Assembly (NCBI GenBank): GCA_026391455.1
Contig: JAPLEH010000017.1
Coordinates: forward strand, 1-56,228
DNA length: 56,228 nucleotides
Direction of reading: 5' to 3'
DNA from: Bacteroidota bacterium
Lineage (GTDB): Bacteria; Bacteroidota; Bacteroidia; Chitinophagales; Chitinophagaceae
Part shown: in pieces, positions 22,094 through 56,228 of the stretch
How the letters are laid out: each line of letters starts with the position of its first letter
Position numbering within the stretch: position 1 is the first letter of the stretch
Made by a program: the position numbers and the translations under genes
The notes under the pieces: generated by a model
What the model saw: only the letters and a program-made list of their open reading frames with translations
The model's database searches: none
What the model was told of the DNA's origin: nothing

Positions 22094-22474
22094 ATGCCTA
22101 CAATTCAACAATTAGTAAGAAAAGGAAGAGAAATTATCAGGGCTAAGAGTAAATCCAGGGCCCTGGATGAGTGTCCCCAGCGCCGTGGCGTTTGTACAAG
22201 GGTGTACACAACTACTCCCAAAAAACCAAACTCTGCGCTGCGTAAAGTAGCCAAAGTTCGTTTGACCAATAAAGTTGAGGTGATCGCCTATATTCCCGGA
22301 GAAGGTCATAACCTGCAGGAGCACTCTATCGTGCTGATCCGTGGCGGAAGGGTAAAAGATTTACCAGGTGTACGTTATCATATTGTACGTGGTTCTTTGG
22401 ATACTGCGGGTGTAAAAGACCGTAAGAAGAGCCGTTCTAAATATGGTACCAAGAAAGAGAAAGCGAAGAAGTAG
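22094..22474 (+). CDS. rpsL: 30S ribosomal protein S12
   Basis: Decoding-centre protein of the small subunit. The 126-residue sequence is the standard form: [13 protein letters not shown] at the start, [29 protein letters not shown] around the streptomycin-sensitive loop (Lys of TPKKPNS), then [32 protein letters not shown] and a Lys-rich C-terminus. It is first in a two-gene operon with rpsG and has a well-matched promoter. Its stop codon G is the first base of a 22-bp palindrome. Confidence 0.99.
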
Positions 22475-22495
22475 AATCAACGCATGCGTTGATTC
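22474..22495. repeat. REP-like perfect palindrome between rpsL and rpsG (first copy)
   Basis: A 22-bp perfect palindrome centred on GCATGC: GAATCAAC on the left, GTTGATTC on the right. It begins in the rpsL stop codon. It shares the CAACGCATGCGTTG core with the second copy 18 bp downstream. Confidence 0.85.
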
Positions 22496-22512
22496 AGCAG
22501 AGGCAACGCTAG

Positions 22513-22532
22513 AGACAACGCATGCGTTGTCT
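22513..22532. repeat. REP-like perfect palindrome between rpsL and rpsG (second copy)
   Basis: AGACAACGCATGCGTTGTCT, a 20-bp perfect palindrome, preceded by CTAG. Its AGACA...TGTCT arms and GCATGC centre are the same as in the palindrome inside the RAYT gene at 56149-56176, differing in the two bases on each side of the centre (AC/GT here, GG/CC there). Confidence 0.85.
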
Positions 22533-22569
22533 GTACAAATAAATAAAAAAGCAATTCAATAAATAAGTC

Positions 22570-54566: not shown

Positions 54567-55242
54567 ATTGAAACTCCACCCTGCCGATTATACGATAGTT
54601 GGATTTTCGGAGCGTGACTGATCCGATCGCTTTTTCTTTCAGGGCACAGCGCGGGGCATACACCCCTGAATGAATAAAATATACATCCCGGCCATCGTTC
54701 AGTATGAAACCGGTATGATTATCGAGCCCGGTAATGTAAAGGCCAAATCCCATCTTCCGTACACTTTGCACGAAATCATCCAATGATACATTACTAAAAC
54801 GTTTCAACCCGGAGCAGTTCGTTCGAACCAGTTGTTCACTCGCACATTGGGCCATTTTCACCCGATCTATTTTCATACCTGCATCCTGTAAGGTGGTAGT
54901 TACAAAATAACCACAAGCGATAGCTCCCTTCTGAGGAGTACGGGTAGTGCCATTAAAATCCCAGGGTGTACCATACCAGCAGGGAAGTAACGAATCTGCA
55001 AAAAATTGTATTAGTTTTTTCCGGTTCACCTCAACCGGTGATTGTTTATACAACTGAAAGATGTTACGGCATTTTATTTTTTGTGTTTCATAATCACAAT
55101 TGAACGTTGGTGCTGCAATCGCAGAAGTGGGTGTTACGATATCGGTAGAATTGAGTTGACGGGCAGGTTTGTTCAAACAACCCAGAAGGATCGCCGGAAG
55201 AAACATCCGCAATAACCATATAGGGACTGATTTTTTTTTCAT
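54565..55242 (-). CDS. Lipoprotein with a papain/NlpC-like pattern
   Basis: A 225-residue lipoprotein (MKKKSVPIWLLRMFLPAILLGC). The mature part has YGTPWDFNGTTRTPQKGAIACGYFVTTTLQDAG with a Cys at a helix start, and later GLDNHTGFILNDGRDVYFIHSGV with a His. The Cys/His order suggests an NlpC-like cysteine peptidase fold, though no family was confirmed. The ATG at 55242 overlaps the GNAT stop by 4 bp (ATGA), which supports this start over one 10 codons upstream and implies coupled translation. Confidence 0.7.
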   Translation of the reverse strand: MKKKSVPIWLLRMFLPAILLGCLNKPARQLNSTDIVTPTSAIAAPTFNCDYETQKIKCRNIFQLYKQSPVEVNRKKLIQFFADSLLPCWYGTPWDFNGTTRTPQKGAIACGYFVTTTLQDAGMKIDRVKMAQCASEQLVRTNCSGLKRFSNVSLDDFVQSVRKMGFGLYITGLDNHTGFILNDGRDVYFIHSGVYAPRCALKEKAIGSVTLRKSNYRIIGRVEFQ

Positions 55243-55724
55243 GAAAGTTCTTTCATCATCCACAACGTACAACCGGTATGGCCGCTGTTGCCCATCGGTT
55301 CATGAAGATACCTGAATCCGGATTTTTCATACACCCCCAATGCATTTATTAATTCCGGCATGGTTTCGATATACATTTTTTGAAATCCATACTGCAAGGC
55401 CGTGCGGATGGCATTTTCGATCAGCAATTTGCCTAGCCCTATTCCGCGGGCTTCTGGCAGCAAATACATTTTTACCAGTTCGCAGGTATCAGGAGGTAAC
55501 CCATCCGTAGGGAAAATGCCGCCACCTCCCACCATTTTTCCATTGAGTTCGACAATGGTGTACATGGATTTTTCAGTTCGGAAAAATTCATACAAGGCAT
55601 CGGTGGAGGCATCATAATAGACCGTTCCGGGATGATTGGCCCCGAATTCAGCCAGCGTATTCCGGATGATACGGGCAATGTGCGGGTTATCTGCTGCCTC
55701 AATGGGCCTTAACCGAAAATTCAT
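55239..55724 (-). CDS. GNAT family N-acetyltransferase
   Basis: A 161-residue acetyltransferase from the ATG at 55724: NFRLRPIEAADNPHIARIIRNTLAEFG, then VGGGGIFP, LVKMYLLPEARGIGLGKLLIENAIRTAL with the Gly-rich AcCoA loop, MYIETMPELINALGVYEKSGFRYL. The longest open frame begins 55 codons earlier in hairpin DNA and is not credible. Coupled by ATGA to the lipoprotein downstream. Substrate unknown. Confidence 0.92.
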   Translation of the reverse strand: MNFRLRPIEAADNPHIARIIRNTLAEFGANHPGTVYYDASTDALYEFFRTEKSMYTIVELNGKMVGGGGIFPTDGLPPDTCELVKMYLLPEARGIGLGKLLIENAIRTALQYGFQKMYIETMPELINALGVYEKSGFRYLHEPMGNSGHTGCTLWMMKELS

Positions 55725-55744
55725 GCGGTAAATATAATCATAAC

Positions 55745-55785
55745 AAAAACCCCGTCCCAGCCTGCCATGGCAGGTGGAACGGGGT
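55745..55785 (-). terminator. Terminator-like hairpin behind the RAYT gene
   Basis: Stem ACCCCGT/ACGGGGT encloses a second perfect palindrome CCTGCCATGGCAGG; the minus strand then has five T. It lies about 120 bp after the RAYT stop and just before the GNAT start, so it separates the two; it may also be a REP-like element. Confidence 0.65.
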
Positions 55786-55906
55786 AAACCATCAATATGA
55801 AACCCTGTCTGCCGGACATCCCCCACTGGCAACCGGGGAGCAGACAAGCCGTTGCGTTCGTTGATCAATACGAATGATGCCCTATACAATACAATTACAC
55901 AGCCCC

Positions 55907-56228
55907 TCAGGGTTGTTTATTTTTATGAAACCTGTCCTCCTTCCAATTCGCGGGATTGTTCAAAATATAATCGGCGATACGCCCATATTCCATATGGTTG
56001 CGTATGATATGGTCGTGAAACCGGGTTTGCCATCCGAATTCAGGATTTATGGAACGGGATAATCGCGTGACCGCCGATTTAAACGATCCAACCATCGTGG
56101 AAATGGTATTTTTTCCGGGATTGCGGAATCGGTAATGGCGTTGTTGTTGTAGAGACAGGGCATGCCCTGTCTCTACGTCGTTGACGTGGACGTCGTTGTC
56201 GGCGCCGCCGTCAACGACGTCCACGTCC
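55907..56228 (-). CDS. REP-associated tyrosine transposase (RAYT), C-terminal part, cut by the window edge
   Basis: Partial. The recognisable C-terminus is FRNPGKNTISTMVGSFKSAVTRLSR, FGWQTRFHDHIIRNHMEYGRIADYILNNPANWKEDRF, the end of the Y1/RAYT (IS200-like REP transposase) family. RAYTs are single-copy, domesticated transposases that act on REP palindromes. Upstream of this, the open frame passes without a stop through two long palindromes (56149-56176 and 56183-56227), adding a low-complexity DVVDGGADNDVHVNDVETGHALSLQQQ stretch. The N-terminal HUH part lies beyond the window. Its start codon is not visible. Confidence 0.85.
   Translation of the reverse strand, partial: DVDVVDGGADNDVHVNDVETGHALSLQQQRHYRFRNPGKNTISTMVGSFKSAVTRLSRSINPEFGWQTRFHDHIIRNHMEYGRIADYILNNPANWKEDRFHKNKQP
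56149..56176. repeat. 28-bp perfect palindrome inside the RAYT gene
   Basis: GTAGAGACAGGG and CCCTGTCTCTAC arms around a CATG centre, without mismatch. The TAGAGACA arm, GCATGC centre and TGTCTCTA arm match the family seen between rpsL and rpsG. Confidence 0.9.
56183..56227. repeat. 16-bp-arm inverted repeat inside the RAYT gene
   Basis: GACGTGGACGTCGTTG at 56183-56198 and its exact complement at 56212-56227, loop of 13 bp. Directly adjacent to the 28-bp palindrome, and in frame with the RAYT reading. Confidence 0.9.

Follow-up and report, generated by a model that had tools for sequence, protein, structure and literature searches.

A REP palindrome in the coding frame of a RAYT gene and a palindrome-rich linker in its relatives

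The stretch of DNA analyzed here (the window; 56,228 nucleotides, G000:C63:1-56228 of a 5.5-Mb draft genome) ends within a RAYT (TnpA_REP) gene that carries a REP in the reading frame of its C-terminal half. REPs inside RAYT genes are real, ordinary for the family and published in kind. The internal palindrome belongs to the same family as the flanking REP and other REPs of the genome, and the linker between the HUH motif and the catalytic tyrosine is a palindrome hot spot in relatives. The reading that we consider probable is that these REPs are self-inflicted insertions that a loop tolerates and that persist in the same way as neighboring REPs; self-insertion is deduced here from sequence patterns and not from an insertion event seen as such.

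The RAYT is encoded on the minus strand. Its C-terminal half (55907..56228, stop codon at 55907-55909) has a frame, 55907-56227, that is free of stops as far as the window edge and contains the variable linker, WQ and the tyrosine motif YILNNP. Base 56228 is the last one before a run of 29 N (C63:56229-56257), and past this run, outside the window and on the same strand, lies the N-terminal half (C63:56258-56537), with the HUH motif NHTH in the stretch MPNHTHGI and a start ATG at C63:56537. The NCBIfam model NF047646 (REP_Tyr_transpos) matches the N-terminal half at model positions 10-67 (5.3e-7, 29.6 bits) and the C-terminal half at positions 67-131 (3.4e-8, 33.5 bits), both scores being below the cut-off of 80 bits that applies to the whole protein. 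The RAYT motif order, a HUH motif (NHTH, N half) followed by WQ and YILNNP (C half), is borne out. In the neighborhood of this gene, an imperfect inverted repeat at 55749-55785, found as a self-match and not REP-like, lies in the 5' part of an ORF (55239-55889, minus strand) that was interpreted as encoding an acetyltransferase; the true start of this ORF may come after the repeat.

Two palindromes can be observed within the C half. The internal REP (56149..56176) is a perfect 28-bp palindrome composed of two 14-nt arms with zero spacer, has GTAG at both feet and is translated in frame as VETGHALSL. The second inverted repeat (56183..56227, 45 bp) is rich in GAC and GTC, has no GTAG foot and ends one base short of the N run; its arms (56183-56204 and 56206-56227) are 22 nt long and 95% complementary. 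Among the eight window palindromes scoring at least 10, the 45-bp repeat ranks first and the 28-bp palindrome third. The 45-bp repeat was rejected as another REP because of the missing foot and because a search of the 5.5-Mb genome returned no further match to it at E<=0.001. The initial annotation, made from the window alone, had called the gene a RAYT, and the NF047646 matches and the motifs in both halves confirm it. The perfect 28-bp palindrome was likewise correctly described and placed within the frame of the C half, while the arms of 16 bp given for the other repeat had to be corrected. The HUH half, which was to be sought past the window edge, was found there, and its continuity with the C half is masked by the 29 N.

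The proposal that the palindrome is a genomic REP also held, as the 28-mer type occurs in seven copies at up to 3 mismatches in the 5.5-Mb genome, and the reversed control gave 0. One copy is that of the window RAYT, one (C63:56607-56634) lies about 70 bp upstream of the RAYT start codon, two are in mnmA, and the other three are located near the start of the guaB ORF, between the genes for ribosomal proteins S12 and S7, and between L3 and L4 (mnmA is backed by Pfam; the other names were read from translations). A REP therefore flanks the window gene on its upstream side, and on the downstream side none of this type was found at up to 3 mismatches. The S12/S7 intergenic region contains a degenerate REP pair (22474..22536, consisting of 22474-22495 and 22509-22536). 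In mnmA (G000:C71:23730-23808; L016, L018), two full REPs and one partial REP lie in frame near the C-terminus, where the gene of this genome reads VETGHALSLRSTGHALSVETRHALS and where 15 of the 17 aligned sequences have a short turn (the comparison used an ORF passing the filter from 17 of 20 loci). The other mnmA carrier, G010, belongs to the same genus, has its own version of the REP and is 93% identical across the gene. The in-frame REP in mnmA indicates that the REP of this genome enters coding frames outside the RAYT as well. The genome encodes a further RAYT (L020, G000:C19:191253-191723), which is bordered on either side by repeats of a different type (GACTACAAGTCTCGCAC...); six palindromes were listed at this locus, all of them outside the RAYT ORF.

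Relatives were taken from 17 named loci and from searches of 97 and 394 genomes. The search of 394 genomes contributed 30 loci and 80 stretches, mostly the best-scoring matches listed, and this choice over-represents strong matches to a profile for which REP-bearing genes were part of the seed. From 166 ORFs matched in loci L026-L182, 144 were full length, and the removal of cores at least 95% identical gave a set of 132 genes, which leaves out 22 ORFs short of full length and every disrupted gene. A linker palindrome is present in 83 of these 132 non-redundant, full-length, open RAYTs; additionally, the available part of Quentin et al. 2018 (PMC6006769) calls in-gene REP insertions predominant in TnpA_REP subclass 2.4, so the impression that the window gene is an oddity does not hold. 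The 132 genes contain 99 palindromes: the linker (model columns 86-128) holds 90, columns 40-46 hold 6 and the other columns 3, where one gene may count in two zones. Per kb, this corresponds to 5.37 palindromes in the linker, 1.63 in columns 40-46 and 0.055 in the rest, and synonymous shuffles gave 0.119, 0.054 and 0.02, respectively. The linker is thus about 100 times as dense in palindromes as the remainder of the gene and 45 times as dense as the shuffled linkers. Columns 40-46 form a second, rarer palindrome site, used in 6 of the 132 genes (L053, L057, L059, L087, L097 and L098).

Loci whose titles name Bacteroidetes, Anaerolineales, Shapirobacteria and Kuenenbacteria are among the carriers. 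No palindrome above the threshold was found in either insertion zone of 46 of the 132 genes, and 21 of these 46 have one nearby. The linkers of L080, L098, L099 and L049 were read as holding decayed REP copies, so that several apparent absences are, on this reading, due to decay. The linkers themselves are varied: that of L085 (G259:C62) holds three tandem copies of a REP-bearing unit, in frame, those of L044 and L083 hold repeats of other kinds, and those of L052, L056 and L058 consist mostly of peptide tandem repeats. In G009 (C14:15574-15601; L047 2055-2082), the RAYT stop codon shares bases with a flanking REP-like palindrome. An AlphaFold2 model of L026, built with 10 sequences (mean pLDDT 70.7, pTM 0.67), combines an ordered core with pLDDT below 50 at residues 92-118 and 120-146, which are the linker holding its palindrome; the linker is thus predicted to be disordered in L026, the one relative modeled.

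Several comparisons bear on whether DNA or peptide is shared. A flanking palindrome was found within 700 bp in 37 of 86 carriers, counting REPs that lie beyond the stop-to-stop ORF extension. In these 37 loci, the internal REP and the flanking REP have a median identity of 0.93, with 22 of 37 at 0.85 or more and 15 of 37 internal REPs below 0.85 to the best flanking one; when REPs were swapped between loci, the median was 0.50, and 58 of 896 comparisons reached 0.85. In two pairs of related genes, L026/L073 (core 81% identical) and L147/L150 (core 78% identical), near-identical palindromes stand in different codon phases and encode different peptides, and a conserved peptide is consequently unsupported. 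The palindromes of L085/L107 are far more alike than the fourfold sites (0.89 vs 0.08), whereas those of L128/L163 (0.29 vs 0.63) and L089/L131 (0.46 vs 0.79) are less alike, as expected if palindromes are both replaced and inherited.

Characters were also placed on a RAYT tree, built from few columns and with many open forks. For 59 labeled genes, the tree requires 13 changes of foot sequence (shuffles 19-26), 38 of spacer (shuffles 46-51) and 14 of codon phase (shuffles 9-22); palindrome presence requires 32 changes (shuffled labels 32-46, mean 40). REP type is therefore consistent with the RAYT tree, codon phase is not, and presence is barely so. The scatter of presence over the tree speaks against a single ancestral insertion, although the threshold misses decayed copies. 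Among the 57 palindromes with a recognized foot, phase 0 accounts for 35 and phase 1 for 22. Phase 2 is empty by the construction of the set, since a GTAG foot there puts TAG in frame and open ORFs alone were kept, and a codon-phase preference was discarded on these grounds.

Taken together, the linker hot spot, the likeness of internal and flanking REPs and the frame switches make self-inflicted insertion, which the initial annotation had offered as one option, the best-supported origin. According to this proposal, REPs would enter the linker, often from neighboring copies, either by the RAYT's own single-strand activity, for which cleavage of its single-stranded REP is a putative activity, or by gene conversion, and frame-preserving insertions would be the ones that get seen. 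The inserted REPs would be tolerated in the linker that connects the HUH strand to the catalytic-tyrosine helix and may then decay and be renewed, the internal REP being replaced from neighboring copies by local homogenization. Hairpins in the mRNA, which the initial annotation had offered as the other option, are by default regarded as a by-product. Counting against self-insertion are the 46 genes without a palindrome in either insertion zone, the 15 internal REPs below 0.85 identity to their best flanking copy, and close pairs such as L128/L163 and L089/L131, whose palindromes are less alike than their fourfold sites.

The strongest rival, in our estimation possible but rather unlikely, is that usefulness explains why the internal REP is kept: it could be bound by the RAYT, in the gene itself or in its mRNA, or could serve as a seed from which the gene founds a REP family at each place it moves to; a variant in which the hairpin in the coding region serves self-regulation is equally tentative. 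In a phylum sample of 394 genomes that was not hand-picked, 165 genomes have this RAYT type (E<=1e-15), and 110 of these contain exact double-foot REPs, as do 30 of the 229 genomes without it. A total of 322 exact copies was found in 84 genomes, and 36 of them lie within the linkers of 104 retrieved RAYTs, whose genes, linkers and all, make up less than 0.04% of the DNA of those genomes (a bound obtained by applying the smallest genome size to all 84); this concentration argues for some such role. This count refers to the aligned part of the retrieved RAYTs, where all 36 are in the linker, with one further copy in an ORF extension, and copies of any other RAYT are missed by it; a further 21 exact copies lie within 700 bp of RAYT ORFs. 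Because so many copies lie in so small a fraction of the DNA, a bias to land or to stay at the RAYT is needed beyond mere tolerance of the loop.

Moreover, 17 of the 84 genomes have exactly one copy. In 5 of them it is located in the RAYT linker; in the other 12 it lies outside the retrieved RAYTs, which weakens the case for a useful REP. A set of 15 RAYT genomes was hand-picked, in part because of internal REPs, and in 5 of the 15 (G009, G394, G228, G222 and G163) all self-complementary GTAGAGAC-type copies (up to 2 mismatches) are in or beside the RAYT. The same search in 8 genomes lacking a RAYT match at 1e-15 returned nothing in 7 of them, and the eighth, G241, gave two GTAGAGAC matches read as not self-complementary. 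The predicted RNA fold of both window palindromes together is also in favor of usefulness (-60.6 kcal/mol vs -27.9, sd 3.4, for 200 shuffles; z -9.67). Against it, the 46 genes mentioned above lack the REP, several copies are decayed, its presence agrees with the tree only slightly better than shuffled labels do, and in mnmA, where such a role would not be expected, the same REP is also found in frame. The fuller proposal, in which the element maintains its in-gene REP as a heritable seed and as a self-regulating operator (mRNA hairpin or DNA site), with selection acting on the DNA and not on the peptide, seems to us doubtful.

It is quite improbable that the window RAYT is a dead or mis-assembled gene in which the palindromes and the gap mark breakage. 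The 29 N do adjoin the second repeat at its foot, the two halves are in different frames if the N count of exactly 29 is taken literally, and the same 11 bases are found at both edges of the gap, while the frame across the join is unreadable because the N cover it. However, a stop just past the window edge, which would have pointed to a dead fragment, was looked for, and both halves are free of stops; WQ and YILNNP are conserved, and linker palindromes occur in the 83 open relatives, some of them on multi-megabase contigs (e.g. L104 on G204:C1 and L112 on G282:C1). A chance origin from codon bias in a low-complexity linker, suggested by the largely GAC and GTC codons of the second repeat, which are complementary to each other, can for the REP be dismissed on the strength of the shuffled linkers and of the genomic recurrence with no control matches, and is extremely improbable overall, as 1 of 5000 codon-order shuffles (a post hoc test) reached the score of the 45-bp repeat, which makes codon make-up alone an unlikely cause of that repeat.

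Self-inflicted insertion agrees with what is published. In the available part of PMC6006769, REPs of subclass 2.4 are described as inserted within tnpA_REP genes with the frame kept, generally between the HuH and Y motifs, in a peripheral region where they may have little impact on activity. The same part gives double-foot REPs, a length-variable linker with short repeats, hosts in Cyanobacteria, Bacteroidetes and other phyla, and the motifs NH[IFV]H, WQ and YIxNNP. The window RAYT resembles this subclass in its double-foot REP in the linker, within the frame of the C half, and in its WQ and YILNNP. It differs from the motif table in the third HUH-motif residue, which is T (NHTH) instead of I, F or V (among the 132 relatives, T occurs in 10, L in 14 and M in 8), and from the subclass as described there in the second inverted repeat without a GTAG foot beside the REP. 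It thus looks like a new member of subclass 2.4, likened to it by motifs and REP site and not by the published clusters or tree. By sequence, the HUH and Tyr blocks align with E. coli TnpA_REP (PDB 4er8, 2.7e-9), which gave the better match among the two solved chains found at E<=0.01; in 4er8, 14 residues separate the aligned blocks, which leaves no room for a REP insert.

Short GTAG-tagged palindromes lying in frame within genes, singly or grouped, resemble the intragenic GTAG/CGTC REPs of Di Nocera et al. 2013 (PMC3733652), whose available part names replication, repair and other genes as hosts, whereas the host gene here is the RAYT itself. Rickettsia palindromic elements, treated in the same part, also lie in frame in coding genes but are CGTC-tagged and of a type without a dedicated transposase. 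REP recognition is treated in PMC8266576. The available parts of these three papers contain no frame-switch, copy-number or mnmA results of the present kind, and no other account of REPs inside RAYT genes was found by title, in a search that left most subscription journals outside.

The RAYT family thus offers a clear case in which a transposase gene hosts, in its coding frame, the DNA thought to be mobilized by its product. If the maintained role were true, genomes whose sole copy lies inside the RAYT would represent the founding state of a REP family. Genomes whose sole exact copy is there make the founding and upkeep of REP families testable in any case.
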